Origin: Methylomonas aurea | Lineage (GTDB): Bacteria > Pseudomonadota > Gammaproteobacteria > Methylococcales > Methylomonadaceae | Direction of reading: 5' to 3' | DNA: 64,000 nucleotides | Assembly (NCBI RefSeq): GCF_024505045.1 | Contig: NZ_JANIBM010000004.1 | Span: 124,001-188,000 of the forward strand | Shown: in pieces, positions 8,205 to 32,584 of the stretch | How the letters are laid out: every line of letters starts with the position of its first letter | Numbering within the stretch: the first letter of the stretch is position 1 | Notes under the pieces: generated by a model | What the model was told of the DNA's origin: nothing | Database searches by the model: none | What the model saw: the letters and a program-made list of their open reading frames with translations, nothing else | Made by a program: the position numbers and the translations under genes

Positions 8205-10673
8205 ATGATCAAGAAAGGACTCAGCGAAGCTGACATCTGCGCTAAGTACATCACTCCGTATCTGATCCAAGCCGGTTGGGACGAACTAACTCAGATTCGC
8301 CGAGAGGTTTCGTTTACCAAAGGCCGTATTATCGTCCGCGGCAAACTGGTCACCCGCGGCAAGGCCAAGCGTGCTGACTACGTACTCTATTTTCAGCACT
8401 TTCCCATCGCCGTTATCGAAGCCAAGGACAATAGCCATGGCGTCGGGGATGGCATGCAGCAGGCTCTGGATTACGCCAAAATTTTGAATGTGCCTTTCGT
8501 GTTCTCCAGCAATGGCGACGGTTTTCTGTTCCACGATAAAACCGGTCAATCCAACCCCATAGAACGAGAGTTAGCCCCGGAGCAATTTCCGAGTCCTGCT
8601 CAACTTTGGCAACGTTATCGTCAATGGAAACAGCTCGATAACGACCAGGAAGGCATTGTCCTGGAACCCTATTACAACGACGGTAGCGGCAAGGAACCAC
8701 GGTACTACCAACGCAACGCCATCAATGCCACCATCGAAGCCATCGCCAAAGGGCAGGAGCGCATTTTACTGGTCATGGCGACCGGCACCGGCAAAACCTA
8801 TACCGCGTTCCAGATTATTTGGCGATTGTGGAAATCAAACTGGCGGCAACATCGGCAGAAGCGGGTATTGTTTCTTGCCGACCGCAACGTACTAGTCAAT
8901 CAAACCATGGTTAACGACTTTCGTCCGTTCGGTCCTGCCATGGCCAAACTTAGCACCAACGCCAAAACCATCGAACGCGACGATGGCACTTTCGTTGATT
9001 TAACTACTGCCATCGACAGTAAACGCCGCATCGATACCGCTTACGAAATCTATCTCGGACTTTACCAAGCCCTGACCGGCCCTGAAGAGCGGCAAAAAAT
9101 ATACCGCGAGCTATCGGCCGATTTTTTCGACCTGATCATCGTCGACGAATGCCACCGCGGCAGTGCCGCCGAGGATTCGGCCTGGCGCGAAATCCTCGAG
9201 CATTTCAAACCGGCTACTCAAATCGGTTTGACCGCTACACCCAAGGAAACCGCCTACGTCTCCAACATCCATTACTTCGGCGAGCCGGTTTATACCTACT
9301 CGCTGAAACAGGGCATTAGCGACGGCTTTCTAGCCCCCTACAAAGTCATTAAAGTCCATCTGGACATCGATGTCGAAGGCTTCCGTCCGAAAAAAGGCGA
9401 AACCGACCAGCAAGGGCTCCTGATCGATGACCGTATCTACAATATTAAGGATTTCGATCGCACCATCATCATCGACAGCCGAACCCAGCGCGTCGCCAAA
9501 TGGATTTCCGACTATCTTAAGCAAAGCGGCGACCGCTTCCAAAAAACCATTGTCTTCTGTGTCGATACCGAGCATGCCGCCCTGATGCGCCAAGCCCTGA
9601 TCCTGGAAAATCAGGACGAGGTACTGAAAAACGACCGGTACATCATGCGTATCACCGGCGACGATGCAACCGGCATCAAACAACTCGATAACTTTATCGA
9701 TCCAGAATCCACGTACCCGGTCATCGTCACCACCTCGCGCCTGTTATCCACCGGCGTCGATGCCCAAACCTGCAAACTCATCGTGATCGACCGACCGGTA
9801 GGTTCGATGACCGAGTTCAAGCAAATCCTCGGTCGCGGCACTCGAGTGTATGAAGATCTGAAAAAATTTTATTTCACCTTGGTCGATTTCCGCCAGGCCA
9901 GCGCCCACTTTGCCGACAAGGCTTTCGACGGCGAGCCGGTGCAAATCTACGAACCCGAGGAAGACGACCCGGTCTTGCCGCCCGATGACCTGCCACCCAC
10001 CAGCGATCCCGACGAGCCGATTCCGGAACAGCCCGGCGACGACGAGGAGGTGCTGGTCGATCCGCCCGGACCGGAAACGGACCTGCCCGGCATCACCGAG
10101 CCGCCGCCCAAATACCGCGTCAAAGGCAAGCCGGTCAGCGTACTGAAAGAGCGCATCGAATACCTCGACGAAAACGGCAAGTTGATTACCGAATCCCTGC
10201 GCGACTTTTCTCGCAAAGCGATTCGAGCCCACTTTGCCAGTCTGGATCAGTTCTTGAAGCGTTGGAAATCTGCCGAACGCAAAGAAGCCATCATCGAAGA
10301 ACTGGCGGAAGAAGGCTTGTTGCTTGAGCCGTTGTTGGAAGAAGTCGGCAAAGACCTCGACCCGTTCGATCTGATTTGCCATATCGCCTTTGATCAACCG
10401 GCCTTGACCCGCCGCGAGCGCGCCAACAACGTCAAAAAGCGCGACATCTTTACCAAATACGGCGATCAAGCCCGCGCCGTGCTGGAAGCCTTGTTGGATA
10501 AATACCAGGATGAAGGCGTCGTTGCCGGCCTGGATAATGTCAAAATACTGGAAATCGCGCCGTTCAATACCATGGGGATGCCGATTCAACTCATCAAACA
10601 ATTTGGCGGCAAAGCCAACTTTGAAAACGCCGTTCACGAACTCCAAGCCGCCCTCTACGACGAAACCGCTTAA
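8205..10673 (+). CDS. hsdR: Type I restriction enzyme R subunit
   Basis: The 822-aa motor and nuclease subunit of a type I system; it translocates DNA and cuts far from the recognition site. The N-terminal nuclease motif is D58...E72-x-K74 (IAVIEAKD). Walker A is MATGTGKT (K197) and the DEAD-box motif is DECH (314-317), with SF2 motifs further on (GLTATP, ILGRGTR). A proline/acidic linker near residues 585-640 separates the motor from a helical C-terminus like that of EcoEI-type R subunits, which points to type IB. The stop is 3 bases before hsdM. Confidence 0.95.
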   Translation: MIKKGLSEADICAKYITPYLIQAGWDELTQIRREVSFTKGRIIVRGKLVTRGKAKRADYVLYFQHFPIAVIEAKDNSHGVGDGMQQALDYAKILNVPFVFSSNGDGFLFHDKTGQSNPIERELAPEQFPSPAQLWQRYRQWKQLDNDQEGIVLEPYYNDGSGKEPRYYQRNAINATIEAIAKGQERILLVMATGTGKTYTAFQIIWRLWKSNWRQHRQKRVLFLADRNVLVNQTMVNDFRPFGPAMAKLSTNAKTIERDDGTFVDLTTAIDSKRRIDTAYEIYLGLYQALTGPEERQKIYRELSADFFDLIIVDECHRGSAAEDSAWREILEHFKPATQIGLTATPKETAYVSNIHYFGEPVYTYSLKQGISDGFLAPYKVIKVHLDIDVEGFRPKKGETDQQGLLIDDRIYNIKDFDRTIIIDSRTQRVAKWISDYLKQSGDRFQKTIVFCVDTEHAALMRQALILENQDEVLKNDRYIMRITGDDATGIKQLDNFIDPESTYPVIVTTSRLLSTGVDAQTCKLIVIDRPVGSMTEFKQILGRGTRVYEDLKKFYFTLVDFRQASAHFADKAFDGEPVQIYEPEEDDPVLPPDDLPPTSDPDEPIPEQPGDDEEVLVDPPGPETDLPGITEPPPKYRVKGKPVSVLKERIEYLDENGKLITESLRDFSRKAIRAHFASLDQFLKRWKSAERKEAIIEELAEEGLLLEPLLEEVGKDLDPFDLICHIAFDQPALTRRERANNVKKRDIFTKYGDQARAVLEALLDKYQDEGVVAGLDNVKILEIAPFNTMGMPIQLIKQFGGKANFENAVHELQAALYDETA

Positions 10674-10676
10674 TTC

Positions 10677-12134
10677 ATGTCAGCTCGCAATACCGTTAAA
10701 TCCATCCAAGACATCATGCGCCAGGATGTCGGCGTCGATGGCGACGCCCAGCGCCTCTCGCAACTGTGCTGGATGTTCTTTTTAAAAATCATCGACGATC
10801 AGGATCAACAACTGGAATTGATGCAGGACGATTACCAGTCGCCGATTCCGGAAAAATACCAGTGGCGTAATTGGGCCGCCGATCCGGAAGGCATTACCGG
10901 CGATGCCTTGATGGCCTTTATCAATACCGAACTGTTCCCGGCTCTGAAAGATTTGCTGGTGTTCGGCAAACAAGCCAATCGCATCCGCGTCGTCAAAAGC
11001 GTGTTCGAGGATGCCTACAACTATATGAAATCCGGCCAGTTGATGCGCCAGGTCATCAACAAAATCAGCAGCGTCGATTTCAACGACTTGGCCGAGCGCA
11101 AACACTTCGGCGACATCTACGAACAACTGCTCAATGACCTGCAAAGCGCCGGTAATGCCGGTGAATACTACACGCCGCGCGCCGTCACCGCCTTCATGGT
11201 CGACCGTATTGATCCCAAACCCGGCGAAATCCTGTTTGATCCATCTTGCGGTACCGGCGGCTTTCTGACCTGCGCCATTCGCCACATGCGCGACCGTTAC
11301 GTTAAAAAGGTAGAAGATGAACAAGCCCTGCAAGCCAGTCTGCGCGCCGTCGAGAAAAAGCAGTTGCCGCACATGCTCTGCGTCACCAACATGCTGCTGC
11401 ATGGCATCGAAGACCCCAGCTTTGTGCGCCACGACAATACCCTGGCCAAGCCTTACATCAGTTGGGGCCAAGCCGACCGTGTCGATATTATTCTGACCAA
11501 TCCGCCCTTCGGTGGTCGTGAGGAAGATGGTATCGAATCCAATTTCCCGGCCCAGTTCCGCACCAAAGAGACTGCCGACCTGTTCTTGGCCTTGTTCATT
11601 CGTTTGCTAAAGCCCGGTGGCCGTGCTGCCATCGTCTTGCCGGACGGCTCGCTATTCGGCGAAGGTGTCAAAACCCGCCTCAAGGAACATCTGCTGCAAG
11701 AGTGCAACCTGCACACCATCGTCCGTCTGCCCAACAGCGTATTCAAGCCTTACGCCAGCATCGGCACCAACTTGCTGTTCTTTGAGAAAGGCCAGCCGAC
11801 TCAGGACGTCTGGTTTTACGAGCATCAAGTACCGGCCACGCAAAAAGCCTATTCCATGACCAAACCCATCCGCGTCGAACATCTGCAAGGCTGCGTCGAT
11901 TGGTGGGGCGGTGCAGAACGCCAAGGCCGTCAGGAAACCGAGCAAGCCTGGAAAGTCGGCATCGAGGACATCAAAGCCCGCAACTACAACCTGGATTACA
12001 AAAACCCGCACAGCGTTGCCGCTGATCATGGCGATCCGGCGGAACTGTTAGCCAAGCTGGAACAAGACGAACAAACTGTTGCCCGATTGCGGGATCAATT
12101 GAAAAGCATTCTGGCCGAGGCATTGCTGCGATGA
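10677..12134 (+). CDS. hsdM: Type I DNA methyltransferase M subunit
   Basis: Adenine-N6 methyltransferase subunit (485 aa). The SAM-binding motif DPSCGTGGFL starts at D188 and the catalytic NPPF is at 275-278. An N-terminal helical HsdM_N domain (about 8-140) precedes it, and the C-terminus ends in a helix suited to bind HsdS. It overlaps the next gene by ATGA, so hsdM, the DUF1016 gene and hsdS are translationally linked. Confidence 0.95.
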   Translation: MSARNTVKSIQDIMRQDVGVDGDAQRLSQLCWMFFLKIIDDQDQQLELMQDDYQSPIPEKYQWRNWAADPEGITGDALMAFINTELFPALKDLLVFGKQANRIRVVKSVFEDAYNYMKSGQLMRQVINKISSVDFNDLAERKHFGDIYEQLLNDLQSAGNAGEYYTPRAVTAFMVDRIDPKPGEILFDPSCGTGGFLTCAIRHMRDRYVKKVEDEQALQASLRAVEKKQLPHMLCVTNMLLHGIEDPSFVRHDNTLAKPYISWGQADRVDIILTNPPFGGREEDGIESNFPAQFRTKETADLFLALFIRLLKPGGRAAIVLPDGSLFGEGVKTRLKEHLLQECNLHTIVRLPNSVFKPYASIGTNLLFFEKGQPTQDVWFYEHQVPATQKAYSMTKPIRVEHLQGCVDWWGGAERQGRQETEQAWKVGIEDIKARNYNLDYKNPHSVAADHGDPAELLAKLEQDEQTVARLRDQLKSILAEALLR

Positions 12135-19300: not shown

Positions 19301-21526
19301 TTAGAACGTGGCGCGGAAACCGAGCACGACGCTGCGGCCCGGCTCCGGCGCGAAATTGCGTAGAAACGAAACCGAGCTGCGGATTTCCTCGTTGAGCAGA
19401 TTGTTGGCCTTGGCGAACAGCCAAAGATCCAGCGGCTCCAGGCCGCGCCAGTGGTAGTCGGCGGAGGCGCTGAGCAAGTGGTAGCCTGGGGTGGCGGTTT
19501 CGTCGTTGCCCGGTCGGTTTTGCATTTGGCCCCTGGTGTAACGTAGCGCGGCGTTCCAGCGCTGGCCGCCGAAGCCGATTTCCGCGCCCAGCCGCAGCGG
19601 CGGCAGGCGCGGCACGTCATCATCGATAAATCGGCCACGGACGAAATCGGAGAACACGGTCAGCTTCAATTGGCCGAAACGGGTATCGGCCAGAGTGGTC
19701 TGGGCCTCGGCTTCGTAACCCAGGAATAAGGCGTCGCGCTGGCTGTAGGCGTAGACCGGCAGACACTCGATCAGGTTGACGCAGGCCGGGTAGAACTGGG
19801 CTTCGTGGTAATTGTAAAAAGCCTCGGGCTGGCGCTTTTGGTAAATATAATTTTCGGTCCAGTTGGCGTAGGCGTTGATTTTCGCCGCCAGCCTTTCGCT
19901 GTGCCAATCCAAGCCGAGGTCGGCCAGATTGGCGGTCTCGTTGCCGAGACGAACATTGCCGATCTCGAAACTGCGGGTCGACAGGTGCGGACCCAGCGCC
20001 AGCAATTCCTGAATGTCCGGCGAACGCTTGGCCCGGCTCAGCGACAGGCTCAGCGTGGCGGCCTTTGAAGCCTGCCAGTTGGCCGCCAACGAGATCGAGT
20101 CGGCGCGGAAATTCAACGAGTCCGGCAAGGCTACGTCCGGGTAGATCGAAGCCTGTCCGGGTGGCGCCGGAAAGGCCAGTTGCGCGGCGGTCGGGTCGAT
20201 ACGGCTGCGTTCGGTACGCAAACCCAGTTCGAATTGCCACTGGCCGAATTTCAGTTTTTGCAGGCTGAACAGGCCCAGCGTATCGCCGTTGGTGGGCGGC
20301 ACGAAACTCTCCACGCCCAGCGCCGAAAAGTAGCGGTCCTGCCATTGGGCGCCGAGGGTGCCGGACCAGGGTTCCAGAACATGGTGTTCGATCTCGAAGC
20401 GGCCCTCGCCGACCTGATTGTTGAAGGTGGTAAACGGCAGCCGGCCTTCCAGCTCGGTGTGGGTGTAATCGACCAGGCCGTAGCGGAACGCGGCTTTGTC
20501 GATGCCGCGTAGCGGTGCGTACCATTCGCTTTTGAAGTCGTAGCGGGTCTGGCGCATGTCGATCCGAATGTCGGGATTCAGCGCTTCCAGGCTCAGAATG
20601 TCGGCGAACTGCTCCAGCAAGGCCGGGTCGATGTCCGGCAGGATCAGTTCCAGGCCGTCCAGGCTGCTCGGGTCGACGCCGTGGCTGCTTTTCGGAATGC
20701 CGTAGCGGTTGGTGAAATGGCCGACCGACATGCCGGCCATGCCGTGATCGCCCAGCCAGGAGGCACCGAGAAAACCGCCGACGCTCTCGCTGTCGGTATT
20801 GGGGATGGTGCCGCGGGCGTTTAATACATTGCTCAGGCCGAATTGTTCGCGGACCGCGTCGGCGGCGATGGCTTCGCCGGGAATTTCGGTGTCGTTGCGG
20901 TTGCGGTGAAAACCGCCGATTTTGAACGCGAGCTGGTCCCGACCCAAATCCAGTTTGAAGCCGGCGTTGGTGCCGTCGGCGTTGGTATCGAAGCGCTGTT
21001 CCAGCGCGCCTTGCAGCAAGCGTTCCGGTACCCGTTCGGGGATGCGGTTGTCCTTGACGTTGACCATGCCGCCGATGGCGTTGCCGCCGTAGCGGATGGT
21101 GTCGGCGCCGCGCGCCACCTCGATTTGCTCGGCAAACAGCGGCTCGATGGCGCTGGCGTGGTCGGGGCTCAAAAATGACGCGTCGTGGCTGCCGATACCG
21201 TCCTGCATGATTCTGACCCGCGAACCGGTTAGGCCGCGAATCACCGGCAGGCCGACGCCGGGGCCGAAGGAGGCGTTGGCCACGCCCATTTGGTTTTGCA
21301 GGGTTTGGCCCAGATTGTCGGCTTGCTGCAACTTGAGCGCGTCGCCTTTGATCGAGTTGAAACTGGGCGTGATGCGCTGGGCCGGCGCGTCGGCAGTGAC
21401 TTCCACGGCATCCAATTCGGTTTCGGGCTCCGGCGCAGCGGTCGAGACCGGATCCGGCGTGTCCGCTGCTGCGGCCGGTAATGCAGCGGATGCCGCCAGC
21501 ATTATCCAAAATGCGTATGGGTTCAT
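19301..21526 (-). CDS. TonB-dependent outer-membrane receptor
   Basis: A 741-aa receptor with a signal peptide (MNPYAFWIMLAASAALPAAA), a plug domain with FGPGVGLPVIRGLTGSRVRI and GGNAIGGMVNVKDNRIP, and a beta-barrel ending in a C-terminal phenylalanine (VVLGFRATF). It is clearly paralogous to the receptor at 30251-32323, sharing for example FGPGVG, SPDH, DNRIP and ALEQRFD. It follows a PEP-CTERM gene that has a Zur-type box upstream, so the probable substrate is zinc or a zinc carrier. The HRNRNDTEIPG-type loops are not histidine-rich, in contrast to the paralogue. Confidence 0.88.
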   Translation of the reverse strand: MNPYAFWIMLAASAALPAAAADTPDPVSTAAPEPETELDAVEVTADAPAQRITPSFNSIKGDALKLQQADNLGQTLQNQMGVANASFGPGVGLPVIRGLTGSRVRIMQDGIGSHDASFLSPDHASAIEPLFAEQIEVARGADTIRYGGNAIGGMVNVKDNRIPERVPERLLQGALEQRFDTNADGTNAGFKLDLGRDQLAFKIGGFHRNRNDTEIPGEAIAADAVREQFGLSNVLNARGTIPNTDSESVGGFLGASWLGDHGMAGMSVGHFTNRYGIPKSSHGVDPSSLDGLELILPDIDPALLEQFADILSLEALNPDIRIDMRQTRYDFKSEWYAPLRGIDKAAFRYGLVDYTHTELEGRLPFTTFNNQVGEGRFEIEHHVLEPWSGTLGAQWQDRYFSALGVESFVPPTNGDTLGLFSLQKLKFGQWQFELGLRTERSRIDPTAAQLAFPAPPGQASIYPDVALPDSLNFRADSISLAANWQASKAATLSLSLSRAKRSPDIQELLALGPHLSTRSFEIGNVRLGNETANLADLGLDWHSERLAAKINAYANWTENYIYQKRQPEAFYNYHEAQFYPACVNLIECLPVYAYSQRDALFLGYEAEAQTTLADTRFGQLKLTVFSDFVRGRFIDDDVPRLPPLRLGAEIGFGGQRWNAALRYTRGQMQNRPGNDETATPGYHLLSASADYHWRGLEPLDLWLFAKANNLLNEEIRSSVSFLRNFAPEPGRSVVLGFRATF

Positions 21527-22393: not shown

Positions 22394-22408
22394 TGCAACA
22401 ATATAACA
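22394..22408. promoter_or_regulatory. Zur-type box ahead of the PEP-CTERM/TonB operon
   Basis: TGCAACAATATAACA, with one perfect half-site (TATAACA) and one degenerate half. The same 15 bases recur exactly at 32380-32394. It lies 71 bases upstream of the gene starting at 22322, where a repressor would block transcription when zinc is plentiful. Confidence 0.6.
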
Positions 22409-22463: not shown

Positions 22464-23468
22464 TTAAGCCGTTTCCGGGGCTAGTCGGCAGGATTCCAGA
22501 GCGTCCAGCATGTCTTGCTTGGGCAGGTTGCGACCGATGAATACCAGATTCGATTCTCTAGTCGCGCCGTCCTGCCAAGGGCTGCCGAAGTCCTGGGTCA
22601 TCAACATGTGTACGCCTTGATAGATCACTCGCTTGTCGCAGCCGGCTATATTCAGAATGCCTTTGTAGCGCAACAAATCGTTGCCGTAGTCGCGCACCAT
22701 GATGTCCAGAAAAGCCAAGATGCGAGCCGCATCGAGTGCCCGCTCGGTACGAAAGACGAACGAGCCGATGTCGTCCTCGTGTTCGTGGCTGACGTCTTGC
22801 AGAAAATCCGGCTCGATTTTCAGGATGTCGTCCAGGTTGAAACCGTCGATGTCCAGTATGTCGTGCAACTCGGTGGCGCCGAAATGCACGCGCTTGATCG
22901 GCGCCCTGGGGTTCATCGCCCGCAAGCGGGTTTCCAGGTCGGCAACCACTTCGGCTTCCTGCAAATCGGTTTTCGATAGCAAAATCCGGTCGGCAAAACC
23001 GACTTGTTCTTGCGCTTCGTGATGCTCTTGCAATTGCATGTGGGCATGCACCGCGTCGACCACGGTGACGATGGCGTCGAGTTTGTAATTTTCGGCGATG
23101 TCGGGTTCGATGAAAAAGGTTTGCGCCACCGGCGCCGGATCGGCCAGGCCGGTGGTTTCGATGATCACCCGCTCAAAATGCACCTCGCCGGTTTCGCGGC
23201 GCTGCGATAATTCGCCGAGGATGCGCACCAAGTCGCTGCGTACCGTGCAGCAGATGCAGCCGTTGTTCATCGTGACGATTTGCTCGTCGGCTTGCACCAG
23301 CAGTTCGTTGTCGATGCCGGTCTCGCCGAATTCGTTTTCGATCACGGCGATGCGGCGGCCGTGCTGTTCGGTCAAGATACGGTTGAGCAAGGTGGTTTTG
23401 CCGGCGCCGAGAAAGCCGGTCAAAATAGTGACCGGCACCGGGTAGTTCAATTTCAGGTCGGTTTGCAT
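22464..23468 (-). CDS. COG0523 (CobW-type) GTPase, putative zinc chaperone
   Basis: A 334-aa G3E GTPase with Walker [12 protein letters not shown], the switch region ENEFGETGIDNELL, the metal-binding CXCC motif in NNGCICCTVR and Walker B/G-loops (ETTGLADPAP, SKTD). The C-terminal CobW_C domain ends the protein. Family members deliver metal to client enzymes, and those in Zur regulons handle zinc. It starts 13 bases after the folE2 stop, so it is co-transcribed with folE2 and fhcA. Client proteins are not known; the adjacent FhcA, a binuclear metal amidohydrolase, is a candidate. Confidence 0.88.
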   Translation of the reverse strand: MQTDLKLNYPVPVTILTGFLGAGKTTLLNRILTEQHGRRIAVIENEFGETGIDNELLVQADEQIVTMNNGCICCTVRSDLVRILGELSQRRETGEVHFERVIIETTGLADPAPVAQTFFIEPDIAENYKLDAIVTVVDAVHAHMQLQEHHEAQEQVGFADRILLSKTDLQEAEVVADLETRLRAMNPRAPIKRVHFGATELHDILDIDGFNLDDILKIEPDFLQDVSHEHEDDIGSFVFRTERALDAARILAFLDIMVRDYGNDLLRYKGILNIAGCDKRVIYQGVHMLMTQDFGSPWQDGATRESNLVFIGRNLPKQDMLDALESCRLAPETA

Positions 23469-23481
23469 GGGAAGTCCTGGG

Positions 23482-24312
23482 CTAGGATTGCGGTTTGCGG
23501 CGTTCGATCAAGGCGTAAGCCGAATGGTTATGGATGGACTCGAAGTTTTCCGATTCCACCGTGTAGGCGCCGATGCGTGGGTCGGCGTCCAGCCGGGCGG
23601 CGACGTCGCGCACCATGTCCTCGACGAATTTGGGATTATCGTAGGCGTATTCGGTGACGTATTTTTCGTCCGGACGCTTCAACAGGCCGTAAATCGGCGA
23701 CGAGGCCTCGGCCTCGACCAGCGCGATCAGGTCCTCCAGCCAGATGAATTGCCGGGTCGCAACGGTGACGCTGACATGGGAGCGCTGGTTGTGGGCGCCG
23801 CGTTCCGAGATTTCCTTGGAACACGGGCACAAGCTGGTCACCGGCACCACGATTTTGACTTTGGCGCGGCAACCCTGGGCGTCGATTTCGCCGATGAAGC
23901 TGACCTGATAGTCCAGCAGACTGCATACGCCGCTGACCGGCGCGGCCTTCTCGACGAAGTACGGAAAGCGCATGTCGATGTAGCCGGATTCGGCTTCCAG
24001 CCGCGTCAGCATTTCCCGCAACATCAGCGGGAACGAAGCAATGCTGATCTCCCGGTCGTGGCCGTTCAAGATTTCCACGAAGCGCGACATGTGGGTGCCC
24101 TTGAAGTCGTGCGGCAGATTCACGTACATATCAAAACGAGCCACGGTATGTTGTTCGCCGCCGTTTTTATCCTGCACCCGCACCGGATGCAGAATGTCCT
24201 TGATGCCGACTTTGTCGATGGCGATACGGCGGCTGTCGGCGCGGGCCTGGATGTCTTCGATGGGGTTCATGGTGTGCCTTAAGTTTGCGGTTTGTCGGAC
24301 GTTGTCATTCAT
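23482..24312 (-). CDS. folE2: GTP cyclohydrolase IB (zinc-independent)
   Basis: Converts GTP to 7,8-dihydroneopterin triphosphate, the first step to folate and other pterins. The family signature [20 protein letters not shown] is present with the catalytic cysteine and histidine, and [17 protein letters not shown] lies near the start. FolE2 replaces zinc-dependent FolE when zinc is scarce and is a classic Zur target. ATG 24312 overlaps the fhcA stop; the in-frame ATG at 24270 (MNPIEDIQ) has a good TTAAGG and may be the real start. FolE2 is also related to archaeal MptA of methanopterin synthesis, which matters in an organism that uses tetrahydromethanopterin. Confidence 0.93.
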
Positions 24313-25969
24313 GTACCTTAAACCTGGGCCGTTCGCCGAAGTCGGCGTCGTTGACCGCGTATTGGCCGAGTTTCAGTCTGTAGAAACGGTCAAAGTGTTG
24401 TTTGACGGTGCGGGCGATGCCGGCGTCGTAAACCGGGGTGACGGTTTGCGCCAAACCGAGCGGCCGTTCGATCACGACGCCGTCTTGCACCACCAGCCGG
24501 CCGTTTTTGAACACTAGCGCCGCGTTCGCGAACATGGCTTGGTAATCGGGACGAGGGCCAGCGGCTGGGCCGGATCGCTGGTCGGGATCGTAAACGGCGA
24601 TGTCGGCCAGCGCGCCGGGGGCGAGATGGCCGCGGTCATTTAGGCCCAACAATTTGGCGGCGGCGGAGCGGGTCATCGTGGCTATCTCGCTCAGGGTCAA
24701 TTCGCGTTTCAGGCCCGGCAACAAGGTCAGGGCCAGCGCTTCCTGATTCAAGTGCGCCATGCATTCTTGCCGGTAGTCGGCGTCCATCAGCAAGCGCAGC
24801 AGTTCCGGGTAAGCGGTGAACGGCGCGCCGTTGGGATGGTCGGTGGTGAAGAATAGGCGCTCCGGCGCCTCGGCCAGTAAAAACAGTTCCAAACCAATCG
24901 CCCATTGCAGGGTGTTGACGAAGCTAGCTTGGCGGTAGCGGTAAGGCACCACGCCGCCCGAGCCTTCGCATTCGGCGTCCCACATCACGTATTTACCGGG
25001 GCTGGCGTCGCTGTGGCGACTGTATTGGGCAATCACATCGCCGGAGATCGTCACCGTCTGCCCGAACAGCACCTGGCCGACGTCCATGGTGATGTTGGGG
25101 TGGCGGTTGAAGGCTTCCAGCAGCTTGGCCGCCGCCGAGGAAAAGCCTTTGGCGCCTTCCGTGCCGTAAGCGTAGAACTGGACGTGGGCCAGGTGCATCG
25201 GCAAGCCTTGCGCAGCCTCCATGGTGGCGACGATAGTCTCGACGTTGCCGGGAACGCCGAGATTGTTGCAATGCACGTGCGGAGGATGCGGCACGCCGAG
25301 CTGATGGACCGCCGTTTGCAGGGTTTGCAAAATCTGCCGCGAGCTGACGCCGTATTCCGGCACCACGTCGTCCAGGCCGAATTGGCGGACGTTGCTTTTA
25401 AAGGCGTTGGCGCCGCCGGCGTTGATGATTTTCAGGCCCAGAGCGCGGGTGGCGTTCAAGGTCCAGGCCACGTAATCGTTGATTTGGTTTTGGCCGGCCT
25501 TGGCCCGCATCAATCGCAGCAGTAAATCGTCATTACCGAGTATCGCCAGCGCGGCGGTGTCCAGAATCGGAATATCGGCCATTTGCAGGTGTACGTCCAA
25601 GGCGCCGACCGGCAGCATCGCCGGCTCGACCACGGTGGTGTAGCCCATGCCGGCGTAGCGGTAGCCGGTGTCGGTGCTGGACCATTTGGCGGTGGAAAAC
25701 GGATGATTAAGCCGCCGTGCCATATGGTTGCGGTGCTGCTCAGGCAGCAACAGCCGGGCGGTGTTGACGTTGCCGCCGGCGATGTGGCTGTGGATGTCGA
25801 TCGCGCCGGCCATCACGATCTTGCCGGTCAAGTCGTATATCGCGTCGAAGCGTGCGTCCGGTCCGGGGTCGGCGACGATCGCGCCGTCGCGGATAAACAG
25901 GTCGCCGGTTTGGCCGAGCAGGTTTTGGCTGGGATCGTAAATCGCGCCGTTGTGGAGTTTAATCAGCAT
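24305..25969 (-). CDS. fhcA: Formylmethanofuran dehydrogenase/FhcA-type subunit A
   Basis: A 554-aa amidohydrolase-fold protein of the FwdA/FhcA family. In methylotrophs FhcA belongs to the formyltransferase/hydrolase complex that releases formate from the formyl-carrier cofactor. The metal site looks intact: H60 and H62 ([14 protein letters not shown]), K180 ([10 protein letters not shown], the carbamylated-lysine position), H231 or H233 (HVHCNN) and D377 (FTTDHPNG). Unusually it is not next to fhcB, C and D but between DUF1826 and folE2 in a zinc-starvation cluster. A 175-base gap with a repeat hairpin separates it from DUF1826; its stop overlaps folE2. No strong ribosome site is visible before ATG 25969. 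It may be a second copy. Confidence 0.88.
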
Positions 25970-26011: not shown

Positions 26012-26057
26012 AGTTAAGGCTTAGCCGTTCGTCCTGCGCTTGTCGAACGGCTTAACT
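26012..26057. repeat. Hairpin repeat before fhcA
   Basis: AGTTAA ... AGCCGTTCG, a 12-base loop, then CGAACGGCT and TTAACT: a nested inverted repeat related by its CCGTTCG/CGAACGG core to the repeat at 19082-19145. There is no T-run. It lies in the gap between DUF1826 and fhcA and could affect read-through or mRNA stability. Confidence 0.65.
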
Positions 26058-26144: not shown

Positions 26145-26861
26145 TCACAACATGTCCAAAGTCAACAACAGCCGGCGCGGCTGTACCGCAGTAGGAGCGG
26201 GAGAGCGATGCACCAGGCCGCGGCCTTCGTTGCCTTCCCAGTGTTCGCCCTTCATCAGGCCTACCGCGTAAGCCGGCATTTGCCGGACTGCGGTCGGATC
26301 CAGGATCAATCCGGAGTGCTCGTCGGGCTGGCCGCAAGCCCCCATGCCCAACTTGCTGCGGTCCAGCGCGTATTCCGGTAGCCACTCGGTACCGATGCCG
26401 CCGTAGCTGCATACCAACCGGGCCGTTACCCGATCGACGTGAAAGCGCGGGCACATGGCTTTGTCCAGAGTTCTGATGCGTAACCCGGTTTCGCGCAATC
26501 CGAACAACTCGCAATAGGCGGCGGTCAGCCAGGCTACATCGGCGGTCCAGGCATCGTAACCCGGTAGGTTGGCCGCTTGCGGCCATAATTCGGCGAAGTC
26601 GTAGCTTTGCGGATCGGCGGCTTGGCTGATCTCCAGACGGGTTTTCGCTTGCAGCGCGCTTTGCACGAACAGTTCGATGGTATTGGGGCGAGGCCTCTCG
26701 ATCAGGCACAGATTGACCGGGTCTTCGTAAATTCTGGCCAAATCGCCGAAGTTTTCCGAAACAACGGTCAAAGTCTCTTGGCGGCCTTGCAGCGGCTGGA
26801 ACTCAGCGATCGAGTCGAGCGGCAGCAATTGGGTTTGGGCGATAGGTACGCGAGCGAACAT
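26145..26861 (-). CDS. DUF1826 family protein
   Basis: A 238-aa protein of the DUF1826 type, recognised from CPRFHVDRVTARLVCSYGG and the GTEWLPE segment, then MKGEHWEGNEGRGLVHRSP. The conserved histidines, aspartates and cysteine suggest an iron- or metal-binding fold like small oxygenases, though no activity is known to me. DUF1826 genes recur beside COG0523 GTPases in zinc regulons. It starts 9 bases after the ZIP transporter stop (strong GGAGG before the ATG), so it is in the same operon. Confidence 0.78.
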   Translation of the reverse strand: MFARVPIAQTQLLPLDSIAEFQPLQGRQETLTVVSENFGDLARIYEDPVNLCLIERPRPNTIELFVQSALQAKTRLEISQAADPQSYDFAELWPQAANLPGYDAWTADVAWLTAAYCELFGLRETGLRIRTLDKAMCPRFHVDRVTARLVCSYGGIGTEWLPEYALDRSKLGMGACGQPDEHSGLILDPTAVRQMPAYAVGLMKGEHWEGNEGRGLVHRSPAPTAVQPRRLLLTLDML

Positions 26862-26870
26862 CGTTCCTCC

Positions 26871-27641
26871 TTAGGGGGTTAACAGGGTTTGTTCGAGCAT
26901 GACGATGCCTTGCATGAAGGCGATGCCGAGCGCGAACGAAGCGCTTTGACCGCCGAGATGGCGCAGAGTGGAGCGCTCGTGCAGCACCGGAATCAAGTCG
27001 GAGGCGGCGATATAGATAAAGCCGCCGGCGGCAATCGGCAGCAGCACCAGCAACGACGATTCGGCCAACTGGCTGAGCAGCAGGGTAAACAGCGCGCCGG
27101 GCACGACGCTCAGCGAGCAATAAAAATTGTTCAGCACCGCTTGCCTGGGCGAGTAACCGCCGCGCAGCAAGGCGCCGACGTCGCCCAGTTCCTGCGGCAC
27201 TTCGTGGGCGACGATGGCTAGCGTGGTGGTCCATCCCAATATCGGGTCGGCCAGAAAGCTGCCGGCGATCAAAATGCCGTCCACAAAGTTATGGATGGCG
27301 TCGCCGATCAGGTTCATTTTCGCCAGCGGCAAAATCTCGGCGCCGGGCCGGGTATCGACGTTGTGGTCGTGGCGCCAGCGCACCAGTTTTTCCAGCACGA
27401 AAAAGCCGAACACGCCGACCAGCACGGTCAAACATACGTCGCTGACCGAGCCTCGGCGTTCCACCGCGTCCGGTATCAGGTGAATGAAGGCATCGCCGAG
27501 CAGCACGCCGACGGCCAGGGCGACCAAAAACGGCACGACCCTTTTCAGCGTTGCCGCTGGCATCCATAAGGCGAAAGCGCTGGACAGCGAACACAGGCTG
27601 ACTGCGAGACTGGCGGCGATGGTGGCGAGATAAATAGTCAT
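26871..27641 (-). CDS. ZIP-family metal transporter
   Basis: A 256-aa inner-membrane protein with about eight hydrophobic segments. The ZIP metal-transport helices are visible: LIGDAIHNFVDGILIAGSF and AIVAHEVPQELGDVG, carrying the H-N-x-x-D and H-E-x-x-x-E metal ligands. It would import zinc to the cytoplasm. ATG 27641 is chosen from the hydrophobic start MTIYLATIAASLAV; the open frame upstream overlaps the preceding small gene. It lies 7 bases after that gene and 9 before DUF1826. Confidence 0.9.
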   Translation of the reverse strand: MTIYLATIAASLAVSLCSLSSAFALWMPAATLKRVVPFLVALAVGVLLGDAFIHLIPDAVERRGSVSDVCLTVLVGVFGFFVLEKLVRWRHDHNVDTRPGAEILPLAKMNLIGDAIHNFVDGILIAGSFLADPILGWTTTLAIVAHEVPQELGDVGALLRGGYSPRQAVLNNFYCSLSVVPGALFTLLLSQLAESSLLVLLPIAAGGFIYIAASDLIPVLHERSTLRHLGGQSASFALGIAFMQGIVMLEQTLLTP

Positions 27642-28040: not shown

Positions 28041-28868
28041 CTATGCCGACAGCGGCGTAGCTTTGCGTTTCAATCCCAGCAATCCGAGCAGGCCGGAACC
28101 GAACAACCAGGCTGCCGCCGGCACCGGCACTGCTACCGGGGCGAAGTCGAAATAGAAACGGCCGGAATTGATGTTGGCGTCATTCAGGCCGACCAGACGA
28201 AATTCGGCCGTGTAAGTGCCCGCCGGAACGTTGGCGGCAGTCCAGAAGATCGGCGCGAAGCCATCGTCGAGAAAGCTATCCAGGCTGATAGTGTCGCCGT
28301 TGGCAAACAGGTTGGCGGTTTGATGGTCGCCGACGAACAAACCGGTGGTGGCGGAAATCAATTGCAGGCCGATAGCGGTATTGCCTAACAAGGTCGACCA
28401 GCGGTTGTTGCTGCTATTGAACAGAATCTGCTCTTCGCTGCCGGTTTCGTGTCCGGCCAAGCTGTCTACCTTGGCGAAGGTCAGGTTGCCGTAATCTTCC
28501 GACGAATTGTTTTGGGAAGTGAGTTTGCCGCTATACAGGCTGCCGCTGCCCCAATTGAGCGCCAAAGGCGCATCCAGCGAGGAAATTTCCGGAATGCGGT
28601 TGTTGCCGTTGGTATCGTTGGCGGTGGGCGCAGCCGCAGGGCCGCTGTAGCTATAGGCCCCTATGCCGTGGTAATGGTTGCCGTGGTTGAGAAGTAAGGT
28701 CAGATTTCCGGCATTGGGGTTTGCTAAGCCGTTGTAAGTGCCGGAAGTAAAGGTGTTGGTACCGTCGATGCCGATGTAATAGCCGGCCAAACCGCCCTCG
28801 TGAGCGTGGGCTGATGCGCTCATCCCCATGACAATCAGGGTGACCGATAATAGTTGGTTTTTTTTCAT
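28041..28868 (-). CDS. PEP-CTERM protein, probably All3515-type
   Basis: A 275-aa exported protein: signal peptide (MKKNQLLSVTLIVMGMSASA), then a mature start rich in histidine (HAHEGG ... LNHGNHYHGIGAY) and a C-terminal PEP-CTERM signal (VPVPAAAWLFGSGLLGLLG, then LKRK). The histidine-rich N-terminus and the zinc cluster around it suggest a surface zinc-binding role. A strong GGAGGG precedes the ATG. It follows the COG0523 GTPase gene by 85 bases, so it is probably in the operon driven from the Zur-type box at 30178. Confidence 0.78.
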   Translation of the reverse strand: MKKNQLLSVTLIVMGMSASAHAHEGGLAGYYIGIDGTNTFTSGTYNGLANPNAGNLTLLLNHGNHYHGIGAYSYSGPAAAPTANDTNGNNRIPEISSLDAPLALNWGSGSLYSGKLTSQNNSSEDYGNLTFAKVDSLAGHETGSEEQILFNSSNNRWSTLLGNTAIGLQLISATTGLFVGDHQTANLFANGDTISLDSFLDDGFAPIFWTAANVPAGTYTAEFRLVGLNDANINSGRFYFDFAPVAVPVPAAAWLFGSGLLGLLGLKRKATPLSA

Positions 28869-28953: not shown

Positions 28954-30168
28954 TCATTCTGCGAACCAAAGCGGAAACGGGTCTGCATACTGGCGCCAAG
29001 CGTTCGGTCCTGCCGCCAATTCCGCGTCGTTTAGCAGGCAGGCGTCGAGTTCCCGACAGACTTGTTCGGCATCGAGGTTTTGGCCGATGAACACCAGTTC
29101 CTGGCGGCAATCGCCGTAGGGTTCTTGCCAATGTTCGCGAATGTCTTCTAGGTACTCTTCCGGCCATTGATCCTCCGGCACCGACGCCCACCAGCGTCCG
29201 GCCAGACCGTGGCGCATGATGCCGCCGGCCTGCGACCAACTGCCGGCGTGGTCGGGGCGAGAAGCCAGCCAGAAAAAGCCTTTGGAACGCAGCAACGTGC
29301 CGTTTTCCCACTCGTCTTCGTGCAAATGCCGATAGAACCGATCCGGGTGGAAGGGGCGGCGGGCAGAGTACACAAAACTGCTGATGCCGTATTCTTCTGT
29401 CTCCGGCGTGTGCTCTCCGCGCAATTCCTTCAGCCAGCCGGGTGCCTGTTCGGCTTTTTCGAAATCGAATAACCCGGTATCCAACACTTTGCCGAGATCG
29501 ACTTGGCCCATGACTATCGGCACGATTTCGGCGTCGGCGTTCAGGCTGCGCAAAATGGCTTTGAGGTTGGCGATTTCGTCGCTGGCGATCAGATCGATTT
29601 TGGAAATCAGAATCACGTTGGCGAATTCGATTTGATCGACCAGCAGGTCGGCAACATTGCGTTCGTCGTCTTCGCCCAAAGCCTCGCCGGCTTCCTTCAG
29701 ACTCAGCGCTTCCTGGTAATTGCGCATGAAGTTGACCGCGTCTACCACGGTTACCATGGTATCCAGTCGGGCGATGTCGGCCAGGCTGGCGCCGGTTTCG
29801 TCGCGAAAGGTGAAGGTTTCGGCGATCGGCAGCGGCTCGGCGATGCCGGTGGATTCGATCACCAGATAATCGAAGTGGCCGTCCCTGGCCAGGTTGCCGA
29901 CCTCGATCAGCAAGTCCTCTCGTAGGGTGCAGCAAATGCACCCGTTACTCATTTCGACCAGTTTTTCCTGGCCGCGATTCAGCTGTACCTCGTTCTTGAC
30001 CAGCGCGGCGTCGATGTTGACTTCGCTCATGTCGTTGACGATCACCGCCACCCGCCGGTTTTCGCGGTTATTGAGAATATGATTCAGCAGCGTGGTTTTG
30101 CCGGCACCGAGAAAGCCGGATAACACGGTAACAGGTAGTTTGGGTGAGGAGGATGAAATCGGTGTCAT
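28954..30168 (-). CDS. COG0523 GTPase, ZigA-like zinc chaperone
   Basis: A 404-aa G3E GTPase, longer than the one at 22464. It has Walker [14 protein letters not shown], the CXCC motif [34 protein letters not shown], and a long C-terminal CobW_C domain with [19 protein letters not shown], the hallmark of the ZigA/YciC-like branch. Such proteins move zinc to essential enzymes under scarcity. A perfect palindromic Zur-type box ends 9 bases before the start codon, so this gene should be tightly repressed by zinc. Confidence 0.9.
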
Positions 30169-30177
30169 GGATGTGTA

Positions 30178-30192
30178 TGTTATATTATAACA
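30178..30192. promoter_or_regulatory. Zur-type box, perfect palindrome
   Basis: TGTTATATTATAACA: two perfect 7-base halves around one base, matching the known gammaproteobacterial Zur pattern GTTATANTATAAC. It lies 9 bases upstream of ATG 30168, over the expected ribosome site and promoter region. Confidence 0.8.
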
Positions 30193-30203
30193 ATCAAGAT
30201 TTC

Positions 30204-30230
30204 AAAAAAAGGCGCATCGAAGGACGCGCC
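30204..30230 (-). terminator. Intrinsic terminator after the TonB receptor
   Basis: On the minus strand GGCGCGTC, a short loop and GATGCGCC are followed by TTTTTTT. It ends the receptor transcript and isolates it from the Zur-controlled promoter of the next gene. Confidence 0.75.
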
Positions 30231-30250: not shown

Positions 30251-32323
30251 TCAATAACTCAATCTAAACCCTACTTCCGCCCCGCGCCCGGCTTCCGGCG
30301 CGAAGTTGCGCAAGTAAGAGGTGGCGTTGCGGATGTTTTGGTCCAGCAAGTTGTTACCTTTGGCGAACACCATCAGCTTGGCATCGCTGGCGGCTTTGAT
30401 CTGGTAATTGACGCCGACGTTCAGCAGGTAGTAGCCGGCGGTCGAGGTCTCGAACTCGCCGACGCGGGTTTGGTCGTCGGCCCGAGTCAGCCGCAGGTAA
30501 CTGGACAGTTTGTCCTGGTTGTAATCCAGTTGCAGGCCGTAACGCAGCGGCGGCATGCGCGGTACGTCGCCGCCGTTGACAAATTCGCCGCGGGTGTAGT
30601 CGCTGAACAAGCTCAGTTCCAGCAGACCGAGGTGGTTTTCCATCATAGGAAAAATCAGCTTCGCTTCGTAGCCTTTGAAAATGGCGTCCTGCTGGCTGCT
30701 TTGCAGGACCGGTACGCAGTGCTCGGTGCCGCAGTGGTCGCTGTCGCCTTCTTCGTCGAGAAATTCGCCGGTGCGGCGCTGGTAGATGTAATCGCTGGCC
30801 CAGTTATGAAATAAATCCAGTTCGGCGCGCATCCAGTCGGTTCTGAAGCGGTAGCCCAAGTCCAGGTTGTACGAAGTTTCCTCTTTCAAGGCGGTGCTGC
30901 CGCGCTCCCAGCTCCGGGTGGCGTGGTGAAAGCCGTCGGAAAGCAATTCCTGCACTTGCGGCGCTCGCGAGGAACGGGTCACCGCAATATTGAGACTGTT
31001 ACGTTGGTCCAGTTTCCATACCGCCGACGCCGAAGCGCTAACCGGCGTATAGCTGAAGCTATCCATACCGTCCGGGCGAATGTCGGTTTGTTCGACGCGT
31101 GTGCCCAACTGGTAAGTGACCGGGCCGGTGTCGAAGGATTCCACGGCAAATACGCCGTAACTCTGGATATTCGAGCGGGGGACGATGGCTTCGACTTCCG
31201 GTTCGCCGCCGGCGTGTCCGTGGCCGTGCATGTGCAGGCCGAGAAAGTCGCTGGACTGGGCTTGAAAGCCGACCACGCCGCGCAACGGGCCGATGTCTTC
31301 GTGCGCCAGTTCCAGCCGGCCTTCGTAGCTTTGGTTGCTGAAATGGGCGCCGACCTCGCCATTGGCGATTTCATAATGTTCGTAGTCGGTGTAACCCAAA
31401 CGGGTGCGCAAGGATTTGGCGAACGCGAACGGCTTGATCACTTCGCTTTTGAAGTCGTACTTATTCTGCCGCATCGCAATCCGCACGCTTTCCTCGCCGG
31501 TACCGTCCGGAGCGATGCCGTAGTTGTTGTTCAGATTATTGATCGATACCCCGGCGAAGCCGAAGTCGTCGATCCAGGACAGGCCGGCCGAGCCGCTGAT
31601 GGCTTCGGCACCGGTGTTGTTTAAATAACCGCGCGGGTTGTCGACGATTTCCTCGGCCAGCTCCGCATCGTTGAGAGCGATTTTTGCGGTATCGATGGCT
31701 TGGCCGCCGATGTCCATGTTGTTGCGGTGGCGATAAAAGCCGTCAAGGTGGTAGGCGATATGGTCCTTGCTACCTTCGACCTTCATCGTCGTGCTGGTTT
31801 CGTCGCTGGTCGAGTCGAAACGTTGTTCCAGCGCCGCGTTCAGGGCTTTGTCGAAGGCTATACCCGGAATCCGGTTGTCGATGACGTTGACGACGCCGCC
31901 GATCGCGCCGCTACCGTATAGCAAGGTCGCCGGGCCGCGCAAGACTTCGATGCGTTCCGCTAACAGCGGTTCGACGCTGGTAGGGTGGTCGGGGCTGATC
32001 GCGGATACGTCGTTGGCGCCGATGCCGTTGTTCAACACTCGCACCCTGGGGCCGGCCTGACCGCGAATCACCGGCGTACCGACGCCGGGGCCGAAGGATT
32101 GGCTGGAAATACCCAACTCGTTTTTCAAAGTGTCGCCGATGCTGTGTCCGGTTTTCAGGCGCAATTCGTCGTCGCTCAACACGGTAACCGGAGAACTCGC
32201 ATCGGCTTTGCTGACCGGCAGTGGCGCCGTGACAATGATTTCATCCAGCCTGTTGTCCTTTTGGGGTTCCGCATGCAGCAGGCTGGCGGGTAACATCAAT
32301 ACAAAGGGCGACAATTTATTCAT
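30251..32323 (-). CDS. znuD: TonB-dependent zinc receptor, ZnuD-like
   Basis: A 690-aa outer-membrane receptor. The signal peptide is MNKLSPFVLMLPASLLHAEP, so I start at ATG 32323 although the frame is open to 32395. The plug carries FGPGVGTPVIRGQAGPRVRV and the barrel ends in VGFRLSY. An extracellular loop has the histidine-rich HMHGHGHAGG, as in ZnuD-type zinc receptors. Paralogous to the receptor at 19301-21526. Two Zur-type boxes face each other 33 bases upstream, and a terminator follows it, so it is an independent zinc-controlled unit. Confidence 0.88.
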   Translation of the reverse strand: MNKLSPFVLMLPASLLHAEPQKDNRLDEIIVTAPLPVSKADASSPVTVLSDDELRLKTGHSIGDTLKNELGISSQSFGPGVGTPVIRGQAGPRVRVLNNGIGANDVSAISPDHPTSVEPLLAERIEVLRGPATLLYGSGAIGGVVNVIDNRIPGIAFDKALNAALEQRFDSTSDETSTTMKVEGSKDHIAYHLDGFYRHRNNMDIGGQAIDTAKIALNDAELAEEIVDNPRGYLNNTGAEAISGSAGLSWIDDFGFAGVSINNLNNNYGIAPDGTGEESVRIAMRQNKYDFKSEVIKPFAFAKSLRTRLGYTDYEHYEIANGEVGAHFSNQSYEGRLELAHEDIGPLRGVVGFQAQSSDFLGLHMHGHGHAGGEPEVEAIVPRSNIQSYGVFAVESFDTGPVTYQLGTRVEQTDIRPDGMDSFSYTPVSASASAVWKLDQRNSLNIAVTRSSRAPQVQELLSDGFHHATRSWERGSTALKEETSYNLDLGYRFRTDWMRAELDLFHNWASDYIYQRRTGEFLDEEGDSDHCGTEHCVPVLQSSQQDAIFKGYEAKLIFPMMENHLGLLELSLFSDYTRGEFVNGGDVPRMPPLRYGLQLDYNQDKLSSYLRLTRADDQTRVGEFETSTAGYYLLNVGVNYQIKAASDAKLMVFAKGNNLLDQNIRNATSYLRNFAPEAGRGAEVGFRLSY

Positions 32324-32356
32324 AGCGAGAGTTGGACCAGGAAAGCGGGCCGAAAA

Positions 32357-32394
32357 TGTTATATTGTTGCCATCAATTTTGCAACAATATAACA
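32357..32394. promoter_or_regulatory. Pair of inverted Zur-type boxes
   Basis: TGTTATATTGTTGCC (32357-32371) and TGCAACAATATAACA (32380-32394) form an inverted pair with 14 exactly complementary bases on each side. Each has one perfect half-site (TATAACA or its complement) and one degenerate half. Two repressor dimers could bind cooperatively in front of the receptor gene. Confidence 0.72.
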
Positions 32395-32584
32395 AAGCTG
32401 ATTGCTGCCAATGCTCCGCTTGCGGATTTTTCGGCCCGCAAAGACGACTATCGTATCGGGATTCGGTCGGCGGAGTTGGGTGGCGGCAGCAGTCAGCTGA
32501 ATTTGGACGGCGGGGAGCCCCGGAGTATCCAGCGATTTAGTGAAATGAGGTTGATGCTGCCTGCGCAGTCGGTTTATTCAATGG

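Follow-up and report, generated by a model that had tools for sequence, protein, structure and literature searches.

The window, by which is meant the whole stretch of 64,000 nucleotides of Methylomonas aurea DNA that was analysed, carries on its reverse strand a gene for an FhcA-type amidohydrolase at 24305-25969 (554 aa, ATG start), here called fhcA2. Its product is identified as formylmethanofuran dehydrogenase subunit A by the NCBIfam model TIGR03121, which covers residues 3-543 with an E-value of 9e-195 and 648 bits against a cut-off of 392.75. The 3' end of fhcA2 overlaps by 8 bp with folE2 (23482-24312, reverse strand; NF010200 with 300 bits, PF02649), the gene for the GTP cyclohydrolase FolE2, and closely downstream of folE2 on the same strand lies the gene for a YjiA-like COG0523 GTPase (22464-23468; PF02492 and PF07683, with NF008578 as best NCBIfam match at 321 bits, below its cut-off of 361). 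Upstream of fhcA2, again on the same strand, are the genes for a DUF1826 protein (26145-26861; PF08856), a ZIP metal transporter (26871-27641; PF02535; the ATG start was picked by us in a reading frame open from 27803), an all3515-family PEP-CTERM protein (28041-28868; NF040463, 279 bits), which NCBIfam titles “Zur-repressed PEP-CTERM protein”, and the zinc metallochaperone GTPase ZigA (28954-30168; NF038288, 689 bits, cut-off 600). This zinc cluster is flanked by genes for two ZnuD-like TonB-dependent receptors, both on the reverse strand (30251-32395 and 19301-21526) and both under the ZnuD cut-off of NF038289 (415 and 375 bits against 950). The initial annotation had described an fhcA copy between DUF1826 and folE2 that overlaps folE2, and its coordinates and the surrounding cluster are borne out.

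A perfect Zur-type palindrome, TGTTATATTATAACA, was found by pattern match at 30178-30192, 9 bp before the start of zigA, and is the predicted counterpart of the upstream Zur binding site by which Zur-linked paralogues are recognised. It is the only match in the genome with at most one mismatch, while the reversed pattern used as a control gives five, so that rarity alone is weak proof and the argument has to rely on the recurrence of the box in relatives. A sigma-70-like promoter match (30177-30205, reverse strand) overlaps the box; promoter-like matches between 22300 and 30400 are at chance level, with two found and 3.2 expected from shuffles, and the second overlaps a weak Zur-like site at 22394-22408, before a PEP-CTERM ORF. 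This site and another at 32380-32394, near the start of a ZnuD-like receptor ORF, have three mismatches each and were dropped as evidence, being at chance level; over the whole window there are 12 such matches against 4.9 expected, and as many occur in one of 100 shuffles. Two proteins of the FUR family are encoded in the genome, and for one of them the Zur model is the best match (143 bits, below its cut-off of 167). The gap between the DUF1826 gene and fhcA2 is 176 bp long and contains an inverted repeat, which counts against the reading of FhcA2 as an alternative subunit under Zur control that is developed below; because of this gap, we infer rather than observe that a transcript from the zigA box runs into fhcA2. 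The repeat (26021-26055, CCGTTCG...CGAACGG), which we take to be REP-like, may affect such read-through.

Two FhcA types in the host and its family

Besides the window copy, the host genome (4.8 Mb, 99.98% complete) gives one further FhcA match, FhcA1, encoded on contig C56 at 9259-10884, which is 54% identical to FhcA2 in the genome search and 53% in the alignment. The gene order on C56 is fhcB-fhcA-(methyltransferase-like ORF)-fhcD-fhcC, and the genome has a single match each for fhcB and fhcD. A second fhcA with fhcB, fhcD and fhcC, for which the initial annotation had proposed to look, is hence present, and the case of a lone fhcA, which would have spoken against a spare copy, did not occur. 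All of the 23 fhcA1 loci that were picked (7-19 kb) contain fhcB, and 22 of them also fhcC and fhcD; neither zinc-cluster genes nor a Zur box of up to two mismatches occur in any of the 23.

Of the 237 host-family genomes, no fewer than 53 carry window-type FhcA, with at least 56 matches in all at 67-100% identity and at least 787 bits, the canonical type reaching no more than 631 bits. The 55 loci other than that of the window were examined with flanks of at most about 8 kb, as contigs allowed. Zinc-cluster genes are in reach at 52 of the 56 loci, COG0523 genes at 51 and FolE2 at 28; fhcB, fhcC or fhcD are in reach at none. Among the 35 loci of at least 17 kb, 31 have a Zur box that is perfect (18 loci) or deviates by one mismatch, compared with 0, 1, 0, 0 and 1 boxes, none perfect, in five rounds of dinucleotide shuffles. 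The immediate neighbour of fhcA2 is a YjiA-like COG0523 gene in 35 of 83 loci, and FolE2 stands immediately downstream in 14 of 83. Profile matches near FhcA2 in relatives include ThrRS (TIGR00418), QueD (TIGR03367), DksA (TIGR02420) and HisI (NF000768); scoring below their cut-offs, there are also a gamma-carbonic-anhydrase-like protein and, at 102-105 bits, a Zur-like regulator. By tblastn, ThrRS is found at nine, QueD at eight, HisI at ten and Zur at nine of the 56 host-family loci, and DksA at none of these and at three of nine further loci of the order; all five are absent by the same search from the 23 canonical fhcA1 loci.

Four of the 56 loci (L054, L055, L056 and L087) are without zinc context, and no upstream Zur box of up to two mismatches was found at them, which counts against the alternative-subunit reading. 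They form one FhcA2 subclade, which may have lost zinc control. The genes concerned lie at 8001-9650 in L054 and in L055, at 1034-2683 in L056 and at 7025-8737 in L087; three of the four loci adjoin ispG- and bioA-like ORFs, as read by eye, and three of the four genomes (G047, G062 and G123) also carry a zinc-cluster FhcA2.

A Methylomonas metagenome-assembled genome (MAG; G124, 2.6 Mb, 95% complete) bears on the partners of FhcA2, as its single FhcA among the matches listed is FhcA2. Of the cluster genes, this locus has just the one for ZIP, along with a Zur box of one mismatch. It has an fhcD-fhcC pair on contig C3, a lone fhcB on C1, and mch. The fhc operon of this genome (L199, L206) is split across contigs, with fhcA1 missing. 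Both sites where fhcA1 would be expected fall inside long contigs and are occupied by other genes, and tblastn gave no significant FhcA1 match at either. A genuine loss of fhcA1 would mean that FhcA2 has to serve the Fhc complex there; fhcA1 may instead lie in the unassembled part of the MAG. In three other genomes (G037, G038 and G045), FhcA2 is also the sole FhcA type among the matches listed, but these are uninformative, as they are 70-89% complete and fhcB was not found in them.

FhcA types beyond the family

With one genome searched per species, six peptides of the window protein led to 69 loci, the nearest FhcA2 matches being in Methylomonas (92-94%); Methylococcus capsulatus Texas (70%) carries window-type FhcA as well, and so does Methylophaga (61-67%). 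Among 30 genomes tested, 29 have fhcD; the one in which it was not found is a single-cell genome from an alphaproteobacterium whose FhcA belongs to a different clade, and it counts against the alternative-subunit reading. All 14 genomes of the Methylophaga type (12 of them named Methylophaga) have fhcD and both FhcA types, with FhcA1 at most 100 bp from fhcD and FhcA2 elsewhere in each. The idea of FhcA2 as a stand-alone enzyme in organisms without Fhc was rejected on the presence of fhcD in these 14. Zinc-cluster genes accompany 14 of the 16 Methylophaga-type FhcA2 loci, the other two including one 3-kb contig, and FolE2 is in reach at none of the 16.

More distant genomes hold further arrangements. 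In the gammaproteobacterial MAG G330, FhcA2 adjoins HisI behind a perfect Zur box; elsewhere in this MAG (L173, 508-11115) two complete fhcB-A-D-C operons stand side by side, one of them divergent, with an FhcA 44% identical to FhcA1. A Filomicrobium genome has both FhcA types, with COG0523 genes at its FhcA2 locus, where no Zur box of the same pattern was found. In three Sedimenticola genomes the sole FhcA is a relative of FhcA2 and adjoins an fhcB-like gene, and two Methylosinus genomes (L142, 7119-10635; L146, 7119-10587) have a tandem fhcA pair within an fhcB-A-A-D-C operon. Marine alphaproteobacteria of the HIMB59 type (L137-L141, L143, L145, L148, L150 and L153) carry an FhcA at 48-51%, near which FhcB, C and D were not found at the threshold used; fhcD is present in three of four such genomes tested.

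For the phylogeny, 160 FhcA proteins were collected, of which 133 are distinct and 131 have at least 500 aa (L057 and L147 being dropped); L083, L154, L155 and L156, for which no protein was obtained, lie outside this set. In a quick tree of 85 representatives, FhcA2 of Methylococcales, Methylophaga, Filomicrobium and G330 group together apart from FhcA1 with an SH-aLRT support of 98, although the Filomicrobium and G330 sequences join each other on long branches. In a more careful tree, built from 57 sequences with the long rows L131, L133, L149 and L173_1986 omitted and with FhcA1 and FhcA2 thinned, the support is 100/99 for FhcA2 of Methylococcales and Methylophaga and 100/100 for FhcA1. The tree of both copies that had been proposed as a check on the locus separates the two types with full support. 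Judged from both trees, FhcA1 and FhcA2 are old, separate clades, and FhcA2 as a recent duplicate is ruled out.

Metal site, constraint and fold

In an alignment of 33 FhcA sequences, H60, H62, K180, H231/H233, H259/H262 and D377 are invariant. This upholds the earlier statement that H60, H62, K180, H231/H233 and D377 are intact as metal ligands and adds the fourth histidine position left out there, H259 or H262. The invariant residues agree with the Zn-Zn site of four histidines, an aspartate and a carboxylysine described in passages of PMC11656701, and FhcA2 is accordingly predicted to have such a dinuclear site with a carboxylated lysine. The notion of a zinc-independent replacement with lost zinc ligands was discarded, all ligands being kept, though these may bind another metal; the initial annotation had put forward a high-affinity or other-metal version, which FhcA2 may be.

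The residues around the ligands distinguish the two types. FhcA2 keeps the common ligand motifs, including one ending in [VI]QFY, much as does the FhcA of M. extorquens (PDB 6s6y), and it is the housekeeping FhcA1 that deviates, with HTHIGGGK, with HVHGCNLG in 22 of 24 sequences, and with HLTHIQFHSYG in most. Eight of the 23 FhcA1-specific positions fall within the 64 metal-motif positions (hypergeometric p 0.0025). The metal-site surroundings thus differ between FhcA1 and FhcA2, with no sign of a lost metal site in the latter. The FhcA1 of gammaproteobacterial methylotrophs (L003, 9259-10923) has a lysine at alignment position 67, where FhcA2 and the other types have asparagine. Archaeal FwdA has a gatekeeper Lys64, as given in a passage of PMC11656701, of which Lys67 of FhcA1 seems to be the counterpart.

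FhcA2 is constrained much as operon-type FhcA is. At 135 positions invariant in FhcA1 and in the Sedimenticola and Methylosinus types, Methylococcales FhcA2 keeps a mean of 96%, Methylophaga FhcA2 91.5% and the HIMB59-type alphaproteobacterial FhcA 90%. At 164 positions invariant in FhcA1 and the Methylosinus type the values are 92% for Methylococcales FhcA2, 94% for the Sedimenticola type, and 85% for both the HIMB59 type and Methylophaga FhcA2, the last of which counts against the alternative-subunit reading; for these counts L173_1986 and L127 were treated separately from the groups to which they belong. Three changes of the FhcA2 clade at otherwise invariant positions also count against that reading: A314, where other groups mostly have arginine, serine or alanine at 337 in 78 of 80 sequences, where others have glycine, and, in 64 of 80, Q129 in place of the glutamate of the other groups. 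An AlphaFold2 model of FhcA2 has a mean pLDDT of 83.6 and its best match in FhcA of 6s6y (TM 0.91). As residues 309-319 and 321-339 are of low confidence, the model confirms the fold only, and the clade-specific residues are not placeable in it.

The role of FhcA2 and its relation to known systems

Fhc converts formyl-H4MPT to formate through bound methylofuran, according to sections of PMC8141765. From the gene neighbourhoods and alignments taken together, FhcA2 is probably a Zur-controlled alternative A subunit of this formyltransferase/hydrolase complex. As zinc falls, Zur would leave the box before zigA, and the zinc cluster including fhcA2, folE2 and the COG0523 gene would then be transcribed. 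Newly made FhcA2 would be metallated, perhaps by a COG0523 GTPase, a candidate for this by its adjacency (the 35 of 83 loci above), and would replace or supplement metal-poor FhcA1 with shared FhcB, C and D, whereby C1 oxidation could continue under zinc shortage. The narrower proposal that FhcA2 and the shared subunits make up an alternative holoenzyme which works on a non-zinc metal, or which is metallated preferentially by the neighbouring GTPase, is tentative and would not be our expectation. That FhcA2 is a spare FhcA for zinc shortage, as the initial annotation had suggested, gains support from the second fhcA in the fhc operon, from the separation of the clades, and from the recurrence of zinc context and Zur box.

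A quite different role outside Fhc, in which FhcA2 is an amidohydrolase of the zinc regulon that acts on some other formylated or amide substrate, by itself or with partners other than those of Fhc, would explain why fhcA2 is beside fhcB, C or D at none of the 56 host-family loci and why its clade has changes at positions otherwise invariant in operon-type FhcA. It is nevertheless unlikely, as the constraint on FhcA2 is close to that on operon-type FhcA, fhcD co-occurs in 29 of 30 genomes, the fold is closest to the A subunits of Fhc and Fwd, and G124 combines FhcA2, its sole FhcA among the matches listed, with fhcB, C, D and mch. Somewhat less probable still is an extra ordinary zinc copy, by which zinc shortage would simply raise the amount of FhcA with the same metal, affinity and loading. 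The intact ligands and the common residue pattern around them would fit this, and PMC2770081, in its treatment of ligand-keeping paralogues, offers copy number as an alternative; against it, the two types have long been different around the ligands, as the concentration of FhcA1-specific positions in the metal motifs attests, and it is difficult to see why a cell short of zinc would make more of a zinc protein.

The initial annotation had also offered a pterin link, whereby fhcA2 would travel with folE2 because both serve pterin-linked C1 transfer. FolE2 does lie immediately downstream in some loci, and the pterin enzyme QueD recurs near FhcA2, but FolE2 and QueD are themselves zinc-regulon spares (PMC2770081). 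At the 56 family loci, FolE2 is in reach at 28 and zinc-cluster genes at 52; at the 16 Methylophaga-type loci the counts are 0 and 14. On these counts, and with no separate support, the pterin link was rejected as the main reading and is very improbable.

If FhcA2 is indeed the alternative subunit, the enzyme families that Haas et al. list as zinc-sparing would grow by one, and the core pathway of methane and methanol oxidation would be shown to respond to zinc shortage, with the prediction that methane oxidation can be zinc-limited in nature. FhcA2 may then let its host keep living on methane when zinc is short. Should a non-zinc metal or preferential COG0523 loading be involved, methanotrophs and Methylophaga would have a switch that spares zinc in the pathway at the centre of their C1 energy metabolism. 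FhcA2 is itself a candidate client of the COG0523 GTPases whose genes accompany it. As FhcB, C and D would be common to FhcA1 and FhcA2, a subunit swap is directly testable.

FwdA, the archaeal relative, has a CO2-reducing tungsten or molybdenum partner. FhcA2 resembles it in fold (TM 0.88-0.89 with 5t5i and 8rja) and ligands, but is only 34% identical to it. The likeness to M. extorquens FhcA in Fhc (6s6y) is closer, extending over the fold, 47% identity, the ligands and most surrounding residues, with the difference that FhcA2 is a second copy in a Zur-type zinc cluster away from fhcB, C and D. From operon-type FhcA in general, with mostly arginine and glycine at these positions, it differs by alanine at 314 and serine at 337.

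No paper tying FhcA to Zur was found in open-licence PMC among the matches listed; in the part of PMC13300288 where “zur” stands alongside “fhcA”, it is the German word. The relevant sections of Haas et al. (2009, PMC2770081) name nine Zur-linked paralogue families (HisI, PyrC, Cam, HemB, CysRS, ThrRS, amidase, QueD and DksA) and draw DUF1826 within Zur clusters; FhcA, which belongs to a C1 oxidation pathway, is not among the nine, and the words “FhcA”, “formylmethanofuran” and “amidohydrolase” are absent from that text. The PyrC paralogue is described in those sections as having lost its zinc ligands, and the HemB and DksA paralogues are likewise zinc-independent replacements. FhcA2 is like Zur-linked PyrC in being an amidohydrolase-type paralogue in a zinc regulon, but unlike it in keeping all ligands. 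In common with the Zur-linked paralogues and FolE2, it is the second version of a zinc enzyme in its genome and lies in a cluster that combines COG0523 and DUF1826 genes with a Zur box, and in relatives it adjoins several of those very genes. FhcA2 is thus best read as a putative Zur-linked spare of a zinc enzyme, in this case a subunit of a C1 oxidation complex.
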